Shown here: positions 7,080-55,616 of the stretch, in pieces
Position numbering within the stretch: position 1 is the first letter of the stretch
Layout: every line of letters begins with the position of its first letter
Origin: Golubevia sp. BC0850
Taxonomy: Eukaryota; Basidiomycota; Exobasidiomycetes; Golubeviales; Golubeviaceae
DNA: 64,000 nt
NCBI GenBank assembly: GCA_012976225.1
Contig: JAAVVG010000017.1
Coordinates: forward strand, 124,001-188,000
Direction: 5' to 3'
Notes under the pieces: model-generated
Told to the model about the DNA's origin: nothing
Databases searched by the model: none
What the model saw: the letters and a program-made list of their open reading frames with translations, nothing else
Position numbers and translations under genes: made by a program

Positions 7080-9399
7080 CTATCGCTTTCTCTTTCCACT
7101 CGAACTGTTCCTCGTACTTCGACCATGGCTGACTGGAGCTTGCTGCGGAGATTCTTGAACGGGAGGGGGCTGATTGTTCCATGGAGATTCGTTCTGGTAG
7201 TTCTGGTGGTAAGGGTTCGAGTAAGCTTGATTGTTGTTTGAGCTGTTGTCCGTCCGCAGAGAGGCTTCCTTTTCTTCTTCTTTGATTTTCTCCATCTCTT
7301 GCGCCCTCTCGCCACACTCTTTTTCGACACGCCTGAGAGGCAAAAAGAAAGCAAAGTGATTGGAAAAGAGGCTCAGCATCGAATCCAAAGTTTGAGATGC
7401 GAGAGAACGCTTTCAGAACTCACCAATGCCGCCTCAAAGCATCGCTACGAGGAAAACCTTTTTGACAAACTTCGCATACGTAAGGTTTGTCACCAGTCTG
7501 AGAATCAGAGACCGAAAAAGAGGGATGGAGAAGCAATGTCAGTCTCCGCAAACCACATTCAACTCGGTTCGATTCGGTCTCCACTCACATGAACTCTAGC
7601 ATGCCTCTCCAAATCGTGCCTTCTCGAGAAAGCTCTCGGGCACTCCGTGCAGGCGAATGGCTTGAGCTGAGAATGAGCTCTCAAGTGAGCCTTCAGATTG
7701 TATGTCCTGTTCTTGGCGAAGGTCTTTGTGCAATTCGGATAAGGACACTGAGCGATGCCATCAGATTTGACACTTCCTTCCACGGCTTCTCCTATCTCAT
7801 CGATCATCTCGATTTGACTCTGACCAGGTGTCGGTACTGGAATTCCTCCAGGTCCTACGAAAGTTGCGGGCATCAGAGCAGCAATCGGAGAAGGTCCTAC
7901 TGGAGCGTTGAGATTGTGATTCTGTTCCGACGATTGCGAATGACGACTGTTGACTTGGTGTTGATGGTGAGACTGGGAAGAAGATGAAGCTGGCATGAAG
8001 TGGTTTGATTCTGGAATATAAGATCTACCCATTCCGTAGTTGGAGTTGGTAGGCGGAGCTCCCATTGGGTACTGAACGTAGGAATTCCTTTGACCTCCAA
8101 TCATTCCTCCTGGCCTTGTTGGTCCATACGTTGAACTGGAGCTGACGTACATCCCACCACTTCCTCCTGCCATTCCACTTGCTCGCTGCCAATCAGCAGA
8201 GGAGGGATAGTATGCTCGATGTTGCGACTCGTCCCAGTTCGGTCCTACTCTTCCTCTCACACTCGAGAGATTACTGGAACTCCAAGTTGCAGTTGAGTTC
8301 TCCAGAGGCTGACCATAAGGTGAAGAAGCGGCGTAGAGCGTTCCGAGCGGAGTGCTGTGACCTGAAGATATGGAAGCTCTTCCATAGCCATTGTCGTTCG
8401 GACTCGGAGGAGAGGGACCTTCGTGCATCGAAGGCGCAGGAGGCGGCGGAGATGGATGAGCGTAGTCGTGGGTTTCTCTTCTTCTCTTAGCTTCAGGTTG
8501 CCTCGGATCAGCATCATCGAAGTACCTCCCGTCATGTCCACCATTGACCGGAGTCTGATTCCTGGACGATGAAGCGGCTGCGAATTGAGCTGGAGTTAAG
8601 ACTGAGAAGGAGCTTGCTGGGCTTGGGCCCCACTGGTCTACCATCGTTGGTATGCTTTGATTCGACGATGTAGCCTCTTGAAGATCATGAAAGAGAGGTT
8701 CAGCTTGAGGTATAGGCTGCGGCGGAGGTGCGTTCAAAGAGGTGTTGAAGTTGGCTTCCAGATCAGCACCTAATTCGTTCGTCAGCCCAAAGAGTTCCTC
8801 ATCGTTGGGTAGAGGACCACTTGGATCGTAAGAGTGGTCGAGACCAAAGACTCGATTCGCTTCTGCATCTCCTGCGTAGTCGTGAGTGGCGTCAAACACG
8901 TTGGTTCGAGTGTGGTGAGACTGGGCGGACAAAATCGACAAGAGAGTCAAAGGAAGAGCGATTTTTGAGTTTTGACGGCCGAAAGGTCAACTTCTTTCGA
9001 CAAACTCACATATTCGTATTCTGGAGCAGAATCTAATAGATCAGCAGGGAGTTCCGGAAATCTCAACTCGCCACCGAAAGCGGCTGGAGTGACTGCCTGA
9101 TCTCCCTTGAAAGCGTCTGAAGCTAGATCCAGTTCAAAGTCTACGTCGAATCCATTCCCAGGGATGACTGAGCCTGGGAGATGAGTACCATGACCAAAGA
9201 GTTCAGATGGGTTCTCTGCTGTAGTTGAAAGGTATCCCAACGTCTCGGAAGCGTGTTCTGGAAATCCTTGATCATCGGTCGAGCCAGCTTCGATTCTTCG
9301 ATCTGGAGGAGGCGGTGGAGGATCAAGAGTTTGAGAGATGTCCGAATAGTTGGCATAGTCTGGAGTCTGAGTCGACTGAGGATGCATCACTGAAGTCAT
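7080..9399 (-). CDS. C2H2 zinc-finger transcription factor, CRZ1-like
   Basis: Four exons: 9399..9010, 8920..7589, 7497..7424 and 7332..7080; 682 residues, with GTGAGT donors throughout. A long low-complexity N-terminal part (Pro, Ser, Gln, Gly, His) precedes three C2H2 fingers. Finger 1: CPYPNCTKTFAKNRTYNLKAH. Finger 2: CTECPRAFSRRHDLERH. Finger 3, split between exons: TGDKPYVCEVCQKGF, SDALRRHWRVEKECG. The spacing and the motifs YNLKAHLRAH, RRHDLERH and SDALRRHW resemble the fungal calcineurin-responsive Crz1 family, which activates genes in response to calcium and cell-wall stress after dephosphorylation. I did not find a convincing PxIxIT calcineurin-docking motif, so the Crz1 assignment is an inference from the fingers. 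A CAG in the leader (sense TTATCAG, just upstream of 9399) suggests a 5'-UTR intron. An MSN2-type or orphan C2H2 factor remains possible. Confidence 0.78.
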
Positions 9400-30009: not shown

Positions 30010-32550
30010 ATGGAAGCGATTAAACTTCAGAGGAAATATCCTCAATTGTGAGTACATTCAATTTTCTCGATCTACAATCCAATCCAGCTTAACCATCCCC
30101 AGTTGTCTCTAATCTCGCTCACACCTCACCTCCCTCGCACACTCCCCATCGCTCACCCTGGCAGCTCTCAAGAAGAGATGATGCAATTGATTTCATCATT
30201 TCGTAGCATAGATGTTGAAGAAAGAGGTTCAGTTGCCAAACAAGACATGATCAAGACTTTACAAGATCAAGGAGAGAGTTACGATGCTGTCAGAGAGACC
30301 CTAAAGGAAGTTGATTTGGATTCAAGTGGAAGGGTAGAATTAGAGGATTACGTAGATGTGAGTCAAACCGATAGCTAGATTCTCAGCATTTTGGAAACGC
30401 TCTCAAAGCTTTGCTTAATGAGGAGGACGAGCCAGCGGGATCCTTGGAGTGCTGTGCCATCGTGGAAGGGTACCCGAAGCTGAGCTTGGATGGGGTTGAG
30501 GTTGATGATAAGCTGCCTCGGATGCAATCCTTTGATGCAGAAGATGTACAACTTCCAAGAAAGGATTGACCTGAAAAGTTATGTGATCCGATTGCGTTTA
30601 CTTGAAGCTGATTCTCTCCCCAATCTTCTCTACCACCCCCGCTTGTCAGCTACGAGCCAAACTTCGTGCTGGAAGGAATGCTCAAGCTGGAGCTGCTACT
30701 AAAGGTAAAGTCACTGTTAAAGGTACTAATACCAACATTCAGCATACTATCAACGAAGATGAGAGAACCGAATTTACTAGACACATCAACCAGGTAAGTT
30801 ACGATAGAGTACTCAAGACAGAATTTAATTCTAATCTCTGACTTCTTTGTTTTCTACCCTTCATCTTTTTCTTTAACAGTCTTTAGCCGGAGACATTCAC
30901 ATTGGAAAGAGACTGCCAGTTCCAACTGAGACATTCCAACTTTTCGATGAATGTAGAGGTTTGTAAATCCTTCCAAAAAAAACTTGCGTTCTTCCTTAGA
31001 ACTATGCTAATTTGGTTTCCCTTTCATTCTTCTCAGATGGGCTTATCCTCTGTAAACTCATCAACGATGCAGTACCAGATACGATCGACGAAAGAGTTCT
31101 AAACGTAGGAAAAGGAGGTAAACCACCTAATCAATTCCAAATGACAGAAAACAACAACATAGTGATCACTTCATCTAAAGCAATCGGATGCTCAGTCGTT
31201 AATATTGGACCTCAAGATTTGATCGATGGTAGAGAACATTTAATCTTAGGTTTGATTTGGCAGATTATTAGAAGAGGTTTACTAAGTAAAATCGATTTGA
31301 AAAACCATCCTGAATTGTATAGATTGTTAGATGATGGAGAAACTTTGGATGAATTCTTGAGGTTACCTCCAGATCAGATTCTGTTGAGATGGTTCAATTA
31401 TCATTTGAAGGCTGCTGGTTGGGGTAGGAGGTGAGTTTCAACTAGAGGTGGAAATGATGAGGATCGACTCTCTTTCTTGAACTGATCTGATTCATCTTCT
31501 TGGTCCTCTGCCTTTTATTTTTCTCACAGAGTCGCTAACTTCTCAAAAGACGTAGCTGATGGAGAGAATTACACTGTTCTTCTATCTCAACTCAAACCGG
31601 AATCTTGTGACAGAGCTCCACTTCAACAAAACGACCTTCTTCAAAGAGCGGAGATGGTACTTCAAAGAGCGGATTCCATTGGATGTAGGAAGTATCTGAC
31701 GCCTTCGGCCATGGTAGCTGGAAATCCAAAGTTGAATTTGGCTTTCGTAGCTCATCTCTTCAACACCTGGCCATGTCTAGAGCCATTAGAAGATGCACCA
31801 CCAGTAGAAATCGAAGATTTCGATGCCGAAGGAGAAAGAGAGGCCAGAGTTTTCACACTTTGGTTAAATTCTTTAGACGTAGATCCAGGAGTTTACAACC
31901 TTTTCGAAGATTTAAAAGATGGTACTATCATTTTACAAGCTTTCGACAAAGTTTCTCCTGGAAGTGTGGTTTGGAAAAGAGTTTCAAAACCAAAAGAAGG
32001 TCAAGAACTTTCTAGATTCAAAGCAGTTGAGAATACGAATTATGGAGTGGATTTGGCAAAAAACATGGGAATGCACATAGTTGGAATTCAAGGAGCTGAT
32101 ATTGTTGATGGTACTAGAACTCTAGTTCTTGGACTCGTTTGGCAGCTTATGAGATTAAATATCACTAAGACTTTGGCTAATTTAGGTAATGGTGGTAAAG
32201 GAATTAGTGATATGGATATGGTGAAATGGGCAAATGAAACTGTTAAGAAATCTGGTAAAACTTCTTCTATGAGAAGTTTTAAAGATCCTGGTTTGAAAAA
32301 CGCCATTTTCTTTTTGGATTTGTTGAATGGTTTGAGGAATGGAATAGTGGATTACAGTTTGGTAACTAAAGGGAATACAGAGGATGAATGTAAGCTTAAT
32401 GCTAAATTGGCTATTTCTATCGCTAGGAAATTGGGGGCTCTTATCTTTTTGGTTCCTGAAGATATCGTTGATGTTAGGCAGAGATTGATTTTGACTTTCG
32501 TTGGAAGTTTAAGTGAGTTGGAGGAAGATTTCAAGTGGGCTCAGGTTTGA
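30010..32550 (+). CDS. SAC6: Fimbrin (actin-bundling protein)
   Basis: Six exons: 30010..30047, 30165..30357, 30650..30793, 30880..30958, 31037..31430 and 31530..32550; 622 residues, standard fimbrin length. An N-terminal EF-hand region (FRSIDVEERGSVAKQDMI, EVDLDSSGRVELEDYVD) precedes four calponin-homology domains. CH1 starts SLAGDIHIGKRLPVP and reads FDECRDGLILCKLINDAVPD. Later markers are LLRWFNYHLKAAGWGRRV, RVFTLWLNSLDVDPGVYNL and FEDLKDGTIILQAFDKVSPG. It cross-links actin filaments in endocytic patches and cables. The first coding exon encodes only 12 residues. The second EF-hand loop keeps D-x-D-x-S at the calcium site, so calcium binding is possible. Confidence 0.95.
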
Positions 32551-36750: not shown

Positions 36751-39700
36751 TTAATAGAGGTGAGAGAAGAGATGTGGATCTTGTTCTTCCGTGGTTGTCC
36801 CTGTTCCATCTTGTTCTTGCTGAGCTGCAGCAGCGGCAGCTCTCTTGTTTTGGAGTTGAGTTTTGAATCGGGTTATGTGCTGCAGACGAGAGACCCAGTC
36901 TAGACAAAGCAGGGAAGAGGGAAAGGACTGATTAGAGATGAAAGGTGGAAAGAGATTGGGGACCCAACTAACAAATTTCACTCACTACTTCTATAAGGTT
37001 GCATGGCCTCTCCAGTGTCCAAGTAGATTTGGCTCATGAGATTGGAGTTGAGAGCCAACACTCGAACAAAGCCTGGCATGGCAGCTGCTGAGACGAGTTG
37101 CCCGTCACCAATTGGAGAGAAATCTGGGAGACCAGGTCTGGTTTGAAGGGAGACTCGATCTGAGATGGGAGAGAAGAAATTAGAAATGAGAGATTCGTGT
37201 CAGCTTAGATACTTGAGATTTGAAAGAAACAGAAGCCACACTTACAGAAAGTGGAATCGACAGGAGCGACAGATCCCAGGTTGGCTCCTCCTCGAGAGTT
37301 CGGGCTGACGACAATGTTGACGAAGTTGAATTGACTTGGAATGGTTCCAAAGACATACTCCCCTCCACTCTCGTTGAAAACAATGTGAGTCCAGTCATTT
37401 CCGATGAGCGCTTTCTTAGCGGAGTGGTTCTTGTCCTCCGGTCTGCTAGGCATCAGAGTAGAAGTATGATAAACAATCTGAGTGATGTCATCGCCCCAAA
37501 CGTAGGCGTACTTTCCATGGTCATCTGACTGACGATCCAAACCTCCCGTGTAGACGTCCTCTTGACCCTTGAGAGCGACCAAAGATCCTAGACCAGACAA
37601 GAACTGAGTGTACACTGGAGAGCCTTGACGATTTCCTAAGATCTCTGTCTCAGTAGTTTGATTTGGTCCGACATACAAGACTCCGATCTTGTGGAAATCG
37701 ACAACCGGCGCTTGGTCCAAAGTTCGGATGAAACGATCGGTGGCAGGCTCTTCTGGAAGAAGTAGAGGAGCCTTGTCGGTAGCCATGTCCGGGAAAGCAG
37801 AGAGTTGGAGCGCGATGAATCCAGGATCTATCACAACATCTTTCCCACTTCTTGCTGTAGCTGAACCTGCAGCTTTGACTGCAGCCGATGCTGCTGGAGC
37901 AGGTCCAGAGTTGACGTCCTTTGTTTCCTCAGGCTCTCCGACTGCTCCAGTGGATCCAGGCAGCTCCAAGACGTCTCTCATGACTTCTCTCATAGCTTCA
38001 GAGCGAGCATCTTCAGAAGCAGGAGGTCCACTTTCGCCTGACTTCTGGCCCTTTTCTTCTGCCTTGGAGTCATTTCCATGTCTGTCAATAGAATTAGGGG
38101 TTCCTTGAGAGTAGGCGTCAATTGGCTGGCTAAAAGAGGGGTTGAGGCGCTGAGAGAATCCTCCAGAGAAAGAAGCAGCTCTAGGTCTACGAGCTACTCC
38201 AAAGTGAGCTGGTCCGATCGGTCTTCTAGCTCTGAGGTGCTCTCCTACCCTCAATCGATGTTCTGAATGTTGACGGGGAGACCAGTCTTCCGCAGTGGAG
38301 AGAATCTCTCCATCCTCACCTCTGGCAGGCAAGAGAGGAGCGGTGTGAAGAGGGGAGGCCATAGTATCGGGATTCCTCTGCATCATCAGAGCAGCAGGAA
38401 GATCCACTCTCTCTCCGTCCTCGTCCGGTAGAATACTGACAGGAGCGTTCTCCAGCTTGCATAACAGAGCTGTTGTACCAGAAGCTCTACGAACTAGTAT
38501 CTCCACCCAGCCTTCCTTCTTAAGGGTGGTGACTGTGACTAGACCTTTTCCGAAGAGCCAAGACTTGGATTGTCGGGCGTGATCTTTGGCAGCCGTGGCT
38601 CTTGCGATTCCAGTAGAAGCAGCTCCCATGATGACCGAGTTGACGAAAGATCTCTTCGGCTTTGGCTCAGCGTTCGAGTAGGTGAATCGAGATAAGAAAT
38701 CGAAGATGACCTCGGTTTGGTCGCCCATGCTACTTCCTTCGTGAGCTAGCAGCAAACCTCTTGCGATGTAAGGTACATGCTTCGGCCTGTCACCTATGCG
38801 AAGAGACATGAACCAAAGAGCTATGCAGTAGTAGGCAAGCATCATGACGTATTGAGAGAGAGTGAAGGAGGCAGGACTAGATCTGGGATCTTCTCGTGTC
38901 AGAGCAGCTGGAGACTGAAGGTATTGGATGTACTGCAAAGCGATGCCGAAAACTCTCTTGTAGTCGCTCTCGGTAAAGTTTGCGTAACAGGATGGAATGT
39001 GTCCGATGGCTACCATCAGCTCGAGAATGTGAACGCTCATTGTCATCGAAGACATGACAGTCGAGAGCCTGACGAGCATTCCTGGAAGGAGACGGGTGGT
39101 TGACTTTTGAAGCTCGTAGCAGGTCACCGACAACGCTCTCACACATGGAAGAGCGGTTGCTTGAGACTTGTTGAGCCCAGCTATGAAAGCTTCCACCAGC
39201 TCATCTTGTTCCGAACGACTGAAGAGAGTTCTGTAGCTGATGAGGACCTTGAGAATTCCATAAGACACTGCGTAAACGTCCGTCTTCTTGACTCCATCCG
39301 GAATTCCAGCGTCTGGAACCAGCAACCCTTTGAGGAGACCAGAGCAGAGGACTTGACGAAGCGCTAAGATCTGAATCTGAGCTTTCGGTCCGCAGAACAG
39401 GTGCTTGTTTGCGAGCTGATGAGGAAGATGGCAGATTAGATACGAGACCAGTTCCCACTCTCTTTCAATGGAAAGGATCTCAATCGATGCGAGAAGGAAT
39501 TCCGAAATTGGTAGAGGGGCAGGGGTCTCTCCAGAGCTGAGAAGAGCATGGCTGTGTCCTCCGCAGCTGGCGTCTTCTTGGTGCATGTAGGTGAAGACCA
39601 GATCACTTCGAAGGTTGGAAGCCGGAAGCTGAAATGGAAGCTGCTGAGGGAGCTTCCACAATGGCTCCGTTGCTTCGAAGTAGCCTGCTCCGCCTCTTCG

Positions 39701-42700
39701 CTCGTTCCGATTCTGACTGGCGCTCCTCGTCCTATCCCTTTCCCGATCTCTTTCCGCTCTGCCTTCCCTTGAGGTGTCTCTGACTCTTGATTTGGATCTA
39801 GAGCCGTCAGCAGAAGGAGTAGCGGCAGCTCGACCCTCTCTTTCTCTCTCGGCGGTTCTTGCTGAAGGAACAGGGCGAGCAGGTCGAGCTCGACTGTCGT
39901 TGGAACCAGAAGCCTCCATGGCGGCACCAGTTGGAAGATTGGAACTCCCTGTTCCTTCCGGTTCCAGAGTCGGGCCTCTCAGGAGAGCTGAGGCAGAGGT
40001 CGTCACCAGAACGTCCATATCTCCAGTCAGATAGACCCTGTGATGGCGATCAGTCCGAAGTCGGACCAGCCACTGGAGAGCCACCAACCTGGCTCTCAGC
40101 GAGCCGCCGTTCGTCTGGGGCTGTTGAGCTGCAGAGGGAGGTTTCAGGATCTCGAGCATGTCTCTGAAGACGCTGATGCAGCTCTTCCTGACTTGCTTTT
40201 CCCATTTCTCTCTCCTGGCTTCGTTTTCTTCTTTGGCTGTAGGCGAATTCTTCTCGCTTTGGGAGAAAGACGTCGACAGCGACCAAGGCAGCGAGAAAGC
40301 CAATCGATGGAAGATCTCAATGAGATCTGTCACGGCATTGACAGCCTTAGAAGGTTGATCTGGTTTCGAAGCCGAAGTAAATTGAGGTTGAGCAGATGGA
40401 TTTGGAGTTGAGCCAGCACTGACCGCACCTAGAAGAAGTTGGGTAGCACTTGACCTCCGTCCATGAGTTGAGGCGAATTCAGAAGAGTTGGGCTCAGGCC
40501 TGTCATGAGATCCTGCTGGGACGTTGAACGATACGTGACCGTGCGCATGAGCACTGGCTGCAGAAGCGTGAGCGGAGGAATTCTGCGAGAGCCAGAGAAT
40601 GGTAGGAGCATCCATTCCTTTGGCCAATCGAGTCAAGAGCTGCCTGATCTCTACGAAGACATGTTCGTCGTCTCTGGCTAGCTTCAAAGGGCTTGGCTTT
40701 GAGTCTGCATTCGCTTCTTCTCCTTCGGCTAGAGATTGTTCCACTTGAGCTCCACAAGCGGCAGCTCCGTCCACTAGAACGCTCCTGATATCCTCAGAGA
40801 TCTTCTCATCCCTCTCGTTCTCTAATTCTTTCCTGGCCAGGGGAACGATGACCTCGCTCAAGAGTCTAGCTCGATGGTGCGGAAGGTCTCTGACGATCTC
40901 GTAGGTGTGACCACAGACCAGGCGGACTAGTTCCCTTCTAGCCTTAGGGGCGTCTCCGTGACGATGGAAGAAAGCGTGGAGTAAGGATCGAATATTTGAG
41001 ATCCAGTTCTCGTTGGAAGGAAGACAGAGATGCTGAGACTTGTAGTATTGGACCAAGTTGACGACGAGCGAATCTGGAAGTAGAGGAGCCAGGGAGAGAA
41101 GGAGAGCACTGAACTTGGAAGTCCATGGGACAGCATCGGAGGAACTAGATGGGATGTGCTGTGACTGTTGCTGTTGAGAAGTATCTTCGTCTTGCTGTTG
41201 AGGAATGGGTAGGAGTTGAATGTTGGAGAGAAAGCTGAGCAACGCTCTAACAGCGGCCGGAGGAGTGGAGGAGGTGACTTTGACGACTTGAGTAGCTTGC
41301 TGAGGAAGTTTGTTGCCGATTTCAGAGACGCTTCTGTTCAAGCTGGCTCGGGAGATGGTCTGAGAAGAACCGAAGGGACCTACCGATCCACCTTTCAGCT
41401 TCCATCCCTCTACGTGTCTTCGTGCTAGCACTGTGAGTTCGAGGATAGCATCCCAATCTCCAAGGGTCAGCTTCTCTGCTAGTAGCTTCCTGTTTGGTTT
41501 CCGAGATGATCCCAAAGCCGAGGCAGTGGCGGCGCTCAATGGAGAGGCAGCTGAAGCCAAAGAGTTGGCAGTCGGAGGTTTTGAAGGAAGCATCTCTGAA
41601 ACGAGTTCCAACACCTCGATGTCGAGTCTATCGTCCTGTCGTTTCAGAGCTCCTCTGAGAGCAGGAAGGACCAAAGGTAAGGAAAGGGAAGGAGCGAGGG
41701 CGTCTTCCAACTGCATCGCCTCTTTCTTGGCAGCAGAAGCTCCACTTGCACCTCTGCTGGATTCCACTTGGGCCAAGGCTGCCGCATGAGCTGCTAGCTT
41801 GTCAGCTCTGAGCTCCGCTACGTATGCCATTGCGCTTCTAAGTAACCTCACCGACCCGACTAGGACGGAAGGATCTTCATACCTGCTTCCTCTGACGAAA
41901 GATTCATCTGTGAAGTGTTCATAGATCTTGTCTTCCAGATTCTCAGTAGCAGTGGGAGACGAGAGGAACGAAGCAGGTTCGGCCAGAAGTCTTCTGACAG
42001 CTCTGAGCGCTGCGTTAGCACAGTGACTTCTAAGAATGTTGCTCATCACAGGCGAGACTTCTGATTCCCAGTTCCTTTCACCTCCATCGAGAGGGGAAGG
42101 AACAGAAGGGTTGGTCCCATTTCCTTGCTCCTGCTCCATGGCTATAGATTGGAAACCGAGAATTCGACAGAGCGCTCTGACGATCAGGTCTACGCACTGA
42201 GGCGGCATATACCCATATCGAAGAGTAGCGTCCAGCAGCCTGAGAACGCATCTGACGTCCACCTCGTGTAGCTCAGGAGCAGAGGGGGTTGGGAAAGGTC
42301 CTTCCTTCGAGGATTCGGTTCCTATCGCCAGGAGACTACCTCGTCTAGCTCGTGGATCGGGCTGCCTAGAAGTTGCTCTAGATACTGGGGCGGAAGCCGA
42401 GCCAATCTTGAAAGAACCGAGTCCATTTCTGGTAGGAGATGGAGAACGCTCAGTGGAGTTGGTTCCAGAAGACGGGGATGACTGCTCCTTCGTAGTTCGT
42501 CCTCTAGATTGAAGTTGCTGTCTCGACGAAGGAGGAAGTGTTGCTAGTACTATCGGAGCCGGAATTGGGTTCTCTTGATGCAATGAGGTCCCTTCTCCAC
42601 CAGGCTGCACAGGATGAACCACGGGAGAGATAGGCGGGGTGTCACTACCAGAGGTAGTCTCCAGACCATAATAAGAGTATCCGTCCGTGAGAGCTCTAGA

Positions 42701-44521
42701 CTCCTTTAACTTCGGTAACTTCCTCGGCTGAGAGGTAGGGCTCGAGAGAGATTCCATCCTTGAAGAGAGAGCTGCTCCATCTCTGGCGTCTCTTTCTTCC
42801 TCGTCGTCACTGTCTGCTGCTTGCTCTTCATCAGCTTCATCGTCTGCCTCAGCTCCTGGCTCCTCTTCTGATTTCTTCGAGCTATCTGCCCCCTCTTCTC
42901 GCCTTCCAAGATGGGAATCGAGTTGCGCCGTTTCGGTCTCGCCTCTCTCTGGACCCAGAATGATCCTAGCGACTCCATTCAGTGTACTCTCGACGTCGAC
43001 TAGCTCTACCCTGGCAAAGCTGAACTTGAAGATGCTCATGAGAAGGTGTAGAATTGCTTGAACGTTCCATTCCCTTAGTGACATCAACGTCACTAGGGTC
43101 TCTAATCGCCCTTGATCCTTTCGTTTCTGAGAAGCAGGAGAAGGGCTCATAGTTGAAGAAGTAGTCGACTGAGAGAGTTGCTTGATTTGGCTCCTCGAAG
43201 ATTGAACCTCGGTCCAAGCGATTTCCAGCCAATCCGAGAGGAGTGGAACGATGGGAGTGAATCCGACGATCTCCTTGCCTTCCTTGCTGAGAGCTTCCAA
43301 AGCTCGGATCTGCGACGGCAGAGCGGGAAGTAGACTCTTCTCGTATTGAATATCCGAAGGTCCTCCTAGTGCTAGGTCTTCATCCGCGTCGTTCTCGCTT
43401 TGGAACGTGAGGCTGGTGACCAGCTTGTAGAAGAGAGCTCTATCGATTCCAGCCAGAGGCATGTCCCTGTTCCCCTTCCTAGGAGCCAGACTTCCCGGAG
43501 CTCCACTGTGAGTCTCTGCTACAATCCTGGCGGCAGCAGCTTCCTCTGTCATCATAGCGCTATCGATACCTGAGCCGCCATTCTGATCTCCATTCTTCGA
43601 GTGGCCAGCTGATGAGAACGACATCGAGTGAAGATCTGCTAATCGAACTGTGATCGAAAGCAGATCGCAGGCTGACGTCCGGATTGAAAGCGGTTGAGAA
43701 TGTGAGAGCAGATTTGGGATGACTCTGAACAGCTCCGCCGTTGAGGGCTCTGCTATCAAAGCGCCATCTTTTGAGATAACAGGATAGTCCTTTCCTTCCA
43801 TTACTTTCTCTTCGTTCTGACTTGAAGGCTGCTTCTTAGAATTGGACTGGAGGTCTGCTTCGCGTTGAGGAGCCCTTCCTTCCCAGATGTCCACCGCTCG
43901 ACCAACAGCAGCGCTCATTGCCTTTATCCTTCGATTCCTATCCTCGACTGCGCCATTGAATGCTTGCTTTTCTGATTGAGATTGGTTTGAGTAGAAGCTA
44001 GGTAGCGTCTTCCTCAGTTCTTTCAAGTTGTCTTCGTATTGAGTGAGGGTCAGAGCAGCAGGAGGTGGCAGAGGTTCTAGAGGAGAAGAAGCTGCAGGGA
44101 TTGACCGTTGATGCTGTTGCTGAGATGACTTGCTTGTGCTCGGAGTAGAAGACATGACCCCAGAGAAAGGAGAAGCTTCGATGAAATAAGGATCTGCAGA
44201 AGCATGGTCCAAAGGTCTGATCTGAGGTGAAGCTGTGGTAGCCGACGTCAAGGGAGAAGCAGTGGATCCCCTCGATCTGAATGTTCTGAGAAGCTGCTGA
44301 GAGAAAGTTGGCTTGGAAGAAGATGCTGTCGTTGGAGCAGAACTTGTTGATCCGAAGGGTGGACTGGCGAGAAAGTTGGTTGTCGAGGGACCAGCTGAGG
44401 CAGGAACCTTCTTCGAGGCGCCGCTTGACCCAGAGGGAGCTGTCTGATCCGATTCCATGTTGTGGTTCTTGAGGCAGGAAAGGGAAAAGAGAGAAGATTG
44501 AGTTGAGGATGACGCTATCAT
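36751..44521 (-). CDS. TSC2: Tuberin (TSC2) Rheb GTPase-activating protein
   Basis: Three exons: 44521..37246 (7276 nt uninterrupted), 37159..36986 and 36899..36751; 2532 residues. The Rap/Ran-GAP domain is at the C-terminus, from about residue 2265: VDFHKIGVLYVGPNQ, GDDITQIVYHTSTLMP, IGNDWTHIVFNESGGEYVFG, QFNFVNIVVSP, then FVRVLALNSNLMSQIY and WVSRLQHITRFK. The Asn of IGND is the catalytic 'asparagine thumb' of this family, so the GAP looks active. The long N-terminal part (helical repeats with Ser/Pro-rich inserts, for example residues 430-780) matches tuberin. Known role: with TSC1 it switches off Rheb and so TOR signalling. The start at 44521 is the first ATG; MESDQTAPSG at 44458 is an equally good start. 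The gene being one giant exon contrasts with its intron-rich neighbours. Confidence 0.92.
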
Positions 44522-45287: not shown

Positions 45288-46738
45288 ATGACCGCCACTT
45301 CTTCAAACAGTCAAGAATCTGAGTCCTCTACCGTTTTCCAAAACGTTGGCTCTTTCGTCTCTTCCTTCTTCCCAGTAGCTCACAACGAGGAAGAGCAAGA
45401 AGAAGAGGTAAGTTACCTCCTCCTGCTTCTCAAGCCTCTTTTACATCTTGTTGACCGCATGTTATACCATCTCATTCTATTTCTCTTTGTATCGGCAGCC
45501 TACTGAGGAAGAACCAAAGGAAGGAGGCGAAGACGCTGAGGAAGGTGGTGAGGAGGAAGAAGAGGAGGTGAGTTCATTTCAATTCATCGTTCAATCCACT
45601 TCTTTGTCTCTTTGTCTTTCAGCACTAATCAGGTTACTGAAATTGCTCTATCTCATTGTCTTCCCGGTGCTGAATATCTCCCTCGCCTCAGGAGGAAGAC
45701 GAGCCAGAAGACGTAAGTATCGCCTTTCTTTCATAAGTCCCACTTTGACTCTTTCATCGGTATAGGTCCAATGTTCAACGTCAACATGTAAAAAGTCTGG
45801 GTACTCTTAGCAAAGAGGGATCTAGTCAGAGGAGGAGAGAGTTCCAGAGAGACCTCTTCAGCCTTCCTCCCTTCCTCTGCTTATCAAGTGCTCTCTGATT
45901 GGCTTCGGGCTCTTCCCTCGAACTCGCCTTCCAGTTGGAATTTAGGAAGCTAACTTAAGTTCTATAAACACCCAAACTCTGAACAGGTCCGTGACGAGAT
46001 CTACGCTCAATGTGAGGAATCTAAAGCTTGTGCTCCAGCTAAGCACCACTTCGACGAGTGCCAAACTCGTGTTCAAGAGGGAAAAGGGTACAAGGGAGAA
46101 GACTGCATTGAAGAATTGTGAGTCCTCAGAGAATATCAAGCCGGCAGAGGTCATTGAAACTTTCGGTACAGAGGGAGAGATTGCAAAGGGTTATCGGACG
46201 GAGCAAACCGTTTGGGTCTGAGAGAGGCGAGAGATCCTCTGAAAGCGGTTTGGTCGATCCTTTAGGGAAGGAAATGATGAGAAAATAGTGTTCAGATTAA
46301 TTTCGAGGTTGGAAGTTGGACCGGAAGCAAGGAAATGGAGATTAGGCTCTGCAGTCCCTTTCTCCATAGCCTCGAAGCTCTACCTCTCAAGCATCAAGCT
46401 AGATTCTTCCTTACAAAAGGAAAGCTCTGGAAATCATGATTATCAAGTCTATATGCGCCGGTTCCTTCGTCCGATCTCAAGACATTTCTTTTTCGATGGC
46501 GATTGACCATCACTTCCTTTCCCTCTTCCTTTGGCCCCTTCTTTCTCTTTTCTTCGATTTCTTTCAGCTGTGAGTACTCGTTCCTAACAAAACTCCGATC
46601 TTGTTCATTGATCCCACTCCCTCTCGTTCTAGTGGCCAGTGATACTGACCTCTCTTTCACTTCTTCTCCCTCTCAGTCCACCTCGCTCACTGTGCCCAAG
46701 AATGCCTAGCTCCAAAGCTCTTCAGCAAGCTCGTTTAA
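45288..46738 (+). CDS. QCR6: Cytochrome bc1 complex subunit 6 (hinge protein)
   Basis: Six exons: 45288..45407, 45499..45567, 45692..45712 (21 nt), 45987..46117, 46568..46569 (2 nt) and 46677..46738; 134 residues, exact frame. An N-terminal part is followed by a very acidic Glu-rich stretch (EEEQEEEPTEEEPKEGGED), then the conserved cysteine domain: RDEIYAQCEESKACAPAKHH, FDECQTRVQEGKGYKGEDC, EEFFHLAHCAQECLAPKLFS. The cysteine spacing matches Qcr6/UQCRH, which sits at the cytochrome c1 face of complex III in the intermembrane space. Joining exon 4 directly to the last exon would put the conserved HLAHCAQEC block out of frame; the 2-nt exon CT restores GAA-TTC-TTC-CAC (E-F-F-H), the sequence expected in fungal members. 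Intron 4 is 450 nt and intron 5 is 107 nt. Confidence 0.93.
46568..46569 (+). other. 2-nt microexon (CT) of QCR6
   Basis: It lies between a strong pyrimidine tract plus CAG (ending 46567) and a perfect GTGAGT donor (46570-46575). It converts the phase-2 end of exon 4 (TT) into the phase-1 start needed by the last exon (TC CAC CTC). Intron 5 has an ACTGAC branch-site-like sequence and a pyrimidine-rich end with CTCTCAG. Because the donor sits two bases after the acceptor, removal of intron 4 could regenerate a donor for a second step, similar to a recursive splice site displaced by two bases. Confidence 0.82.
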
Positions 46739-53399: not shown

Positions 53400-55616
53400 T
53401 GAGAAGGGTTGGAAAAGAGAATCAAAGACCCTTCGAAAGTCGAATGTATGCTATCTTTCACTGAGATTTTACTTTCAGATGGGCAATGAGTGTCCTTCCA
53501 CAAGGGAAATGCGTCTTGTATCCTCAAAAAGGCGAAGCTGAGAGCTTAGACTTCTTTTCCTACTCTCATCCCCAGATTCCAGTCAATCGGTGGAACTAGA
53601 ATCAAAGATCCCAGACAAGTAGTCTACGCCCTAGATCACGACGTTCAAAACAAATCCTCAAAGAACCTTGCCAAATATTCCAAAATCGAATCCTTCGCTC
53701 GATCTCAAGGAGTTGATTTCTATCCAGCTGGTAGAGGGATTGGACATCAAGTGATGGTAGAAGAAGGTTATGCTTTCCCTTTAACATTAGCAGTAGCTTC
53801 AGATTCACATTCCAACATGTATGGTGGAATTGGATGTTTAGGAACTCCAGTGGTTAGAACAGATGCAGCAGCTATTTGGGCATCAGGTCAAACTTGGTGG
53901 CAGATTCCAGAAGTCATTGAAGTAGAATTAAAAGGGAACTTATCAAAAGGTGTAACGGGAAAAGATGTGATAGTTGCCTTGTGTGGTTATTTCAATGAAG
54001 ATCAAGTTTTGAATAGTGCTATTGAATTCACCGGAGAAGGAGTTAAGAACTTGAGTATCGATGAAAGATTGGCTATTAGTAACATGACTACTGAATGGGG
54101 TGCTTTAGCTGGGGTTTTCCCTGTTGATCAAATGACTTTGGAATGGTATAGGAATTCACTTAACAAATTGGATAAGTTGAATTTCCAAATTGGAAGTTCT
54201 CCTTCTATTAAAGAAAGTCATCCTAGATTAAATGCTGAGAGATTGGAAACTTTGGAGAAAGAAATGAAGGATTACAAACCGGATCAAGGAGCTTTCTATT
54301 CAAAGCATTTGGTTTTGGATCTTAGCACTTTATCTCCTCATGTTTCTGGACCTAATTCTGTCAAGCTATCAACTCCTCTAGAGACCTTGACTGAAAAGAA
54401 CATTCAGGTTCATAAAGCCTATTTAGTCTCTTGTGTCAATTCTAGGTCTTCGGATCTCAAAGCAGCTGCAGAAGTCGTCAAGGGGAAGAAGATCAAAGAA
54501 GGGGTCGAGTTCTACGTAGCGGCAGCTTCCTCTGTGGTTCAAAGGGAATCGGAAGAACTAGGAGATTGGGGCATTCTAATGGCAGCTGGAGCAAAGCCAC
54601 TTCCTGCTGGATGTGGACCTTGTATCGGTCTAGGAGTCGGTCTATTGCAGGACGGAGAAGTTGGAATCTCTGCTACGAATCGAAACTACAAGGGTAGAAT
54701 GGGAAGTCCAAACGCAGCTGCCTATTTGGCTTCTCCAGCTGTCGTAGCAGCAAGTGCTATCGCCGGAAAGATCTGTGGACCAGATTCTCTAGACGTTTCT
54801 AGTCTTCCTGGAAGGGATGCTCTACAATTCTCAATGACAATCAACTCTCCAGCCGCTTCAACTTCCTCTGGTCCACCTCCTCCAGCTCCTGAACAACCAA
54901 CTTCAAAAGAAACTTCAGATCTTTTATTACCTGGTTTCCCAACTTCTTTCTCTGGTCCACTTATCTTCGCTCCTCAAGACAATTTAAACACTGATGGAAT
55001 TTATCCTGGAAAATACACTTATCAAGATGATATCACTCCTACCAAACAATCAGAAGTAGTCATGGAAAATTATGATGAGAACTTTTCGAAAATCGTTTCG
55101 AAATTAAGAGAGTCCTTCGATTTACCTCTTTGGGATTCTGAAGTTTTAAAACATCAGAAAGAAATTGGTTCAAATGAAGGTAGAAAAGGTGTGATTTTAA
55201 TTGGAGGGTATAATTTTGGTACTGGTTCAAGTAGAGAACAAGCTGCAACTGCTCTTAAATATTCTTCTATTCCTTTAGTTATCTCTGGTTCTTTTGGTGA
55301 TATCTTTAAAAGAAATGCTATCAATAATGGTTTGGTTTGTTTGGAATGTCCAGAACTTGTTGAAGATTTGACTAGCGAAGTTGCAAGGGATGGGAAACGT
55401 GGAAATGGTGGGAAAAATGAAGGAGAGATTTCAGTTTTGTTGGATGATGGGAAAGCGGAAATCACTTTGAGAAGTGAAGATGGAAATTTGGTGGTCAAGA
55501 GAGCAGATGGAAGTCAAAAGGTTTATACTACTAGACCGGCTGGAATTGGGAAAAGTGTTCAGGATATTTTTACCGCTGGTGGATTGGAAGCTTGGGTTAA
55601 GAAGCGTTTGGATTGA
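53013..55616 (+). CDS. LYS4: Homoaconitase, mitochondrial
   Basis: Two exons: 53013..53359 and 53576..55616; 795 residues. The presequence is basic ([18 protein letters not shown]). The core carries the aconitase features [55 protein letters not shown] and [15 protein letters not shown]. Iron-sulphur ligands lie in [16 protein letters not shown] and [12 protein letters not shown]. The swivel domain has [19 protein letters not shown]. Sequence around [18 protein letters not shown] and [12 protein letters not shown] is closer to homoaconitase than to aconitase or Leu1. It converts homocitrate to homoisocitrate via homoaconitate in the fungal alpha-aminoadipate lysine pathway, which most bacteria and plants lack. 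The intron (216 nt) holds a (GA)13 tract at 53369-53394. Confidence 0.95.
53369..53394. repeat. (GA)13 microsatellite in LYS4 intron
   Basis: A perfect 26-bp AG/GA dinucleotide run just after the intron donor. Length may vary between strains. Confidence 0.9.

Follow-up and report, generated by a model that had tools for sequence, protein, structure and literature searches.

Exons of a single nucleotide have been described in the plant genes APC11 (PMC4674806) and VPS55 (PMC8831610) and in the CYP621A gene of the ascomycete Fusarium, where the arrangement AG-G-GT was confirmed by RNA reads (PMC12940212). According to the Fusarium paper, earlier work had already described exons of 2 to 5 bp in Arabidopsis, Drosophila and humans (PMC12940212). 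At ratchet points, an acceptor and a donor are juxtaposed within long introns (PMC8605326), and a stwintron is an outer intron in which one of the splicing motifs is split by a second, inner intron (PMC5639578, PMC6616335). Microexons are further represented by MEPDB (PMC12409088) and by a paper on Trichoderma microexons (PMC11121469). Phrase searches of the literature for two-nucleotide exons, in several spellings, returned no on-topic paper as judged by title and the start of the abstract; searches for 2-nt microexons in connection with both fungi and introns, and for introns of the Exobasidium rhododendri genome, found none, and a search for Ustilago micro-exons gave mitochondrial genomes only.

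We analysed a window of 64,000 nt from Golubevia sp. BC0850, which carries on its plus strand the nuclear gene for QCR6/UQCRH, the hinge subunit of complex III, with six exons, a coding sequence of 405 nt and a product of 134 aa (Table 1). The product that includes the CT of exon 5 matches UCR_hinge (PF02320) at 86.3 bits against a cut-off of 27.2, over positions 1-64 of 65, and a Pfam search of the 25.77-Mb, 64-contig assembly reported one UCR_hinge match, with no second intact QCR6 copy found. All five introns are of the GT-AG type; each starts with GTAAGT or GTGAGT and ends with CAG. The ends of exon 3 can hardly be checked by homology, as this exon lies in a low-complexity acidic stretch. 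Elsewhere in the window we observed a very long uninterrupted frame of 2438 aa at 37205-44521 on the minus strand, tuberin (TSC2)-like with DUF3384, Tuberin and Rap_GAP matches; an open frame of the aconitase family at 53751-55616; and, at 30200-32550, coding-looking sequence that is EF-hand-like by eye, followed by a fimbrin-like open frame with three calponin homology matches.

Table 1. Exons of the QCR6 gene model in the window, with the two introns that flank the proposed 2-nt exon and their candidate branch points.
Feature	Coordinates	Strand	Length	Description
QCR6 exon 1	45288..45407	+	120 nt	phase 0; start codon at 45288
QCR6 exon 2	45499..45567	+	69 nt	phase 0
QCR6 exon 3	45692..45712	+	21 nt	itself a microexon; phase 0
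QCR6 exon 4	45987..46117	+	131 nt	phase 2; ends GAAGAATT; first two thirds of the hinge domain (PF02320 match)
Intron 4	46118..46567	+	450 nt	GTGAGT...TTTCTTTCAG
Intron 4 candidate branch point	46503..46507	+		TTGAC; its A (46506) lies 61 nt before the end of the intron; pattern match only
Exon 5 (proposed)	46568..46569	+	2 nt	CT; completes codon 114 and opens codon 115 (TTC TTC), one base each
Intron 5	46570..46676	+	107 nt	GTGAGT...CTCTCAG
Intron 5 candidate branch point	46645..46649	+		CTGAC; its A (46648) lies 28 nt before the end of the intron; pattern match only
QCR6 exon 6	46677..46738	+	62 nt	conserved C-terminus HLAHCAQECLAPKLFSKLV; stop TAA

The final bases of exon 4, GAA GAA TT, are followed by GTGAGT, and exon 6 opens with TC CAC CTC GCT directly after CTCTCAG. 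A previous sequence-only reading of this DNA had held that these two exons are out of frame when joined directly, that a pyrimidine tract with CAG, then CT, then GTGAGT lies between them, and that inclusion of CT yields EEFFHLAHC and an exact 405-nt coding sequence; all three statements were borne out. The CT is preceded by a canonical AG and followed by a canonical GT in the stretch TTTCTTTCAG-CT-GTGAGT at 46558-46575 (TTTCAG-CT-GTGAGT). Pyrimidines make up 23 of the 25 bases before the CAG of intron 4, whose closest upstream AG is 86 nt from the intron end, and 24 of the 25 before the CAG of intron 5; TTGAC is the sole branch-point match near the end of intron 4, and the only match in intron 1 is likewise TTGAC. 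The frame of the conserved protein needs CT: without it, exons 4 and 6 read on as EEFPPRSLCPRM, the conserved EEFFHLAHC...PKLFSKLV is gone, and the UCR_hinge match falls to 48.2 bits over positions 1-45 of 65. EEFFHL stands at this junction in five solved relatives for which an alignment was shown, including 8q1b, 7rja, 8ab6 and 1ezv.

The frame could in principle also be restored by some other cryptic exon of length 2 modulo 3 within the 559-nt gap. We enumerated 873 splicing alternatives: 433 with two introns (outer sites fixed and one inner exon), 439 with a single GT-AG intron, and the unspliced form. Candidate GT-AG sites were those within the scanned ranges, with introns of at least about 40 nt, and each product was scored by a profile from 14 homologues, window excluded. 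The conserved C-terminus was kept by 31 alternatives, 29 with two introns (CT included) and two with a single intron, which delete much of the domain. CT ranked first of all 873 (180.8 bits), and the other 28 two-intron alternatives, although they too keep the C-terminus, all scored below it. The second-best, a CG exon at 46246-46247 (176.9 bits), has poor sites (AAAG, GTTTGG) and reads FV in place of FF; the remaining 27 add at least one residue, whereas the FFHL-like homologues add none. We thus regard a different cryptic exon as very unlikely. Over both strands of the 25.77-Mb genome, the loose pattern YYYYYAGNNGTRAGT is found 89 times (41+48), so that about 0.001 instances would be expected in the 559-nt gap read in the sense direction. 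The reversed pattern is found 122 times (61+61); because YYYYYAGNNGTRAGT is not in excess over this control, the CT exon would be an individual case, and a genome-wide class of AG-NN-GTRAGT exons was rejected. Within the window, YAG-NN-GTRAGT is found elsewhere at 8877 (+), 30353 (+) and 5117 (-); the instance at 30353, TAG-AT-GTGAGT, looks like an ordinary exon end.

In sum, the frame needs CT, strong splice signals flank it on both sides, and none of the canonical alternatives enumerated restores the protein equally well. We infer that CT is used in the RNA and that its use is constitutive, such that CT at 46568-46569 is very probably a constitutive 2-nt exon of QCR6/UQCRH, set between a 450-nt and a 107-nt intron of the ordinary GT-AG kind. 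As only one assembly is at hand, a sequencing or assembly error might instead have removed two bases at an exon end, leaving one ordinary intron of 559 nt; such an error is most improbable, given that both exon ends carry consensus splice sites with a fitting CT exon between them and that the same two-base gap recurs in a protein of E. rhododendri (see below). The gap might also be a single intron, with the protein truly ending in the shifted frame or being rescued by a translational frame shift. The CT-less frame is indeed open to 157 aa, and the E. rhododendri protein was deposited in just this form; the shifted frame, however, drops H119, C120, C124 and P127, which are nearly invariant in an alignment of the window with 31 homologues, exon 6 encodes the proper C-terminus in intact form, and use of CT makes a frame shift unnecessary, so that we give this explanation very little credence.

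For comparison with relatives, 232 distinct proteins were collected from three protein searches (the best 120 of 223, 28 of 28 and 92 of 92 matches) and sorted by the pattern that follows the EE preceding the junction; relatives were read as protein, with splice sites considered through degenerate codons. The closest homologues come from smut-related fungi, with Testicularia cyperi at the top of the matches listed (71% over 93%) and Tilletiaria anomala nearest in exon 4 (88% of 34 residues, among the matches listed). Among the 232 listed homologues, 133 continue FFHL-like, as if spliced, and 81 read EEC, as if a donor followed the initial base of the first F codon; the named members of the latter group are ascomycetes. 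The remainder comprises six that read EEL followed by a stop, four that lack FH, two that read EEFCK, P0021, P0023 and P0036 with one pattern each, and three without the anchor. Annotated proteins of Microstroma, Acaromyces, Meira, Tilletiaria and Tilletiopsis show FFHL, the encoding of which is not visible from protein. A pattern search for DNA of relatives found none, as none of 77 matches in genome contigs and none of 44 in viral contigs was confirmed.

EEL followed by a stop is also the unspliced genomic reading of the window itself (GAA GAA TTG TGA). The six such ORFs fit a TT/GTRA or CT/GTRA donor resembling that of the window, with the caveat that L-stop can also be spelled without a GT donor, and taken alone they would also fit one intron shifted by two bases (TT/intron/CTTCCAC). 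EEFCK, found in two Ustilago-like ORFs, corresponds to TTCT/GTAAG, a donor position that matches intron 5 of the window. P0036, the deposited protein of E. rhododendri, ends EEFPPRSLC, which corresponds to TT joined to TCCACCTCGC and may be compared with the CT-less EEFPPRSLCPRM of the window. Because a gene finder would have found FFHL had one shifted intron sufficed, the likeliest reading of this one gene model is that E. rhododendri shares a CT-type exon, and the deposited model seems to have missed it. P0020, an Exobasidium-like ORF, carries an apparent run-on stretch upstream and yet reads EEFFHL; as a guess, it may represent partly spliced RNA.

Two further homologues run on past the junction. 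P0023 (EEL-YV) best fits a YT/GTAYGT donor in the same phase as that of the window, and P0021 (EEL-CV) fits YT/GTGTGT and, less well, CTNT/GTGTNC, a poor donor with which one intron would be enough. Both can encode YAG-NT-GTRAG at residue 63 past the donor, that is, after an intron of 194 nt in each. A single site of this kind arose by chance in 14.6% (P0021) and 10.5% (P0023) of shuffles (2000 each) and is weak singly; a site at a common position arose in 7 of 40,000 shuffled pairs. Two caveats attach to this figure: the pattern was chosen after the sequences had been viewed, and, should the two introns be homologous, a common position would reflect their conservation and would not count as independent evidence. 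The pattern was absent from all 62 run-on tails of other donor classes (1505 residues in total, longest 51), but this control says little, since the expectation was only about 2.0 sites, and a site was likewise absent in 267 of 2000 rounds of shuffling. From this P0021 donor to the AG/TC acceptor the distance would be 194+2+52 nt, or 3n+2, with a second intron of 52 nt; read by eye, the end of that intron is preceded by the residues LTN, the codons of which could spell a branch-point-like CTNACNAAY. Taken together, E. rhododendri and the two relatives represented by P0021 and P0023 appear to share the exon, which is thus probably not private to the species of the window. The proposal of a 2-nt exon is well supported by the frame, the splice signals, the enumeration of alternatives and these traces in relatives.

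These open frames also bear on whether CT is included in only part of the molecules, with skipping or intron retention tuning QCR6 output. In the window, the frame stays open over a long stretch when intron 5 is retained, P0021 is open through the entire intervening stretch to HLAHC, and P0023 is open far into it; the run-on ORFs may, however, be plain genomic DNA, and we consider partial inclusion improbable.

At the same junction, four annotated Agaricomycete proteins, P0043, P0070, P0072 and P0093 (Dendrothele, Piloderma, Crepidotus, Marasmius), lack exactly two residues, FH, and read EELMMHC or EEFMMHC, and homologues such as P0026 and P0030 read EELFHMMHC. The gap looks like a skipped in-frame 6-nt exon.

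Returning to the proposed CT exon, the general view of splicing in this fungal group is that it proceeds by intron definition, and the donor region that pairs with U1 stretches back across CT into CAG, so that both sites cannot be engaged simultaneously. Because the spliceosome must contact overlapping bases at the CAG acceptor and at the GTGAGT donor, stepwise splicing is nearly forced, and introns 4 and 5 are very likely removed one at a time. Under intron definition, the two introns would be excised successively; whichever the order, the first step would fuse CT to either exon 4 or exon 6, and what remained would be an ordinary intron. Removal of the 107-nt intron first seems to us slightly more likely than removal of the 450-nt intron first: intron 5 is short and has its CTGAC 28 nt from its end, and its removal would make CT an ordinary exon start. 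Intron 4 features that bear on the order are its long AG-free tract and the TTGAC at 61 nt. Recursive splicing from the left, with an intermediate that keeps only the 107-nt intron, may be the order instead. We found no special RNA structure bridging the introns (z 0.19, with 12 of 20 shuffles folding equally well). For APC11, the authors propose intron definition plus stepwise removal, and cite potato invertase, in which the intron downstream of a 9-nt exon is removed first (PMC4674806).

With regard to origin, the donors of introns 4 and 5 (46117-46127 and 46569-46579) share 10 of 11 bases, TGTGAGTnCTC, a similarity beyond what the consensus of splice sites requires, and resemble a duplicated donor. 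We did not build on donor duplication as an origin, since six of the 10 identical bases are splice consensus and the exon seems old. An introner or transposon origin of intron 4 was rejected; introners have many near-identical genome copies, and the 450-nt intron matched only itself in the genome (E <= 1). An embedded small RNA was also discarded, as the two sub-threshold matches to miRNA families include none in introns 4 or 5. We tentatively suggest, as a possibility we hold to be rather unlikely, that the 2-nt exon is an old trait which Exobasidiomycete-like fungi have in common, and that it represents a lasting intermediate of intron sliding. The Ustilago-like lineage would have TTCT/intron/TC and another possibly TT/intron/CTTC; the window would hold both introns, two bases apart, and loss of either would shift the intron by two bases. 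On this view, tiny exons at the junction may go back even further in Basidiomycota, given the four Agaricomycete proteins without FH.

If real, the CT exon would show that a basidiomycete-like fungus carries an exon of 2 nt in a housekeeping gene that is both core and conserved. Gene predictors are defeated by exons of this kind, and the deposited E. rhododendri protein looks wrong for that reason. The locus would also offer a simple natural substrate for two questions: which of two overlapping splice sites is used first, and whether intron sliding passes through tiny exons as intermediates.

A 2-nt exon as such is already known in other organisms, and the proposed QCR6 exon is a further ultra-small exon rather than a new kind; it is set apart by its size of two bases, by its place in a core respiratory gene and by signs that it is conserved. 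The sequence-only reading had placed exons this small at the physical limit of splicing, a view that needs revision in light of the published 1-nt exons of APC11, VPS55 and CYP621A. As at recursive splice sites, the acceptor almost abuts the donor, hence the expectation of stepwise splicing, but the zero-nt exon of such a site has GT directly after AG, and here two bases lie between; unlike ratchet points, which lie in long introns, the QCR6 site would leave two coding bases in the mRNA, and the intron is 450 nt. Like stwintrons, the locus has two adjacent fungal introns that need consecutive excision; unlike them, both QCR6 introns are complete, with separate donors and acceptors and two exonic bases between, and neither splits the donor, branch point or acceptor of the other. 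APC11 and VPS55 share with QCR6 an ultra-small, frame-required exon between two introns, and for APC11 stepwise splicing was likewise proposed, over an interval of 422 nt compared with 559 nt in QCR6 (PMC4674806); they differ in being plant genes with 1-nt exons demonstrated by cDNA, minigenes (APC11) and RT-PCR sequencing. Fusarium CYP621A is likewise a fungal nuclear gene in which an ultra-small exon was inferred from a phase conflict in a conserved motif, and its exon, too, was overlooked by nearly all gene models there and is kept among relatives (PMC12940212). In contrast to that 1-nt, RNA-confirmed exon, the putative QCR6 exon is 2 nt long and belongs to a Ustilaginomycotina-like host.
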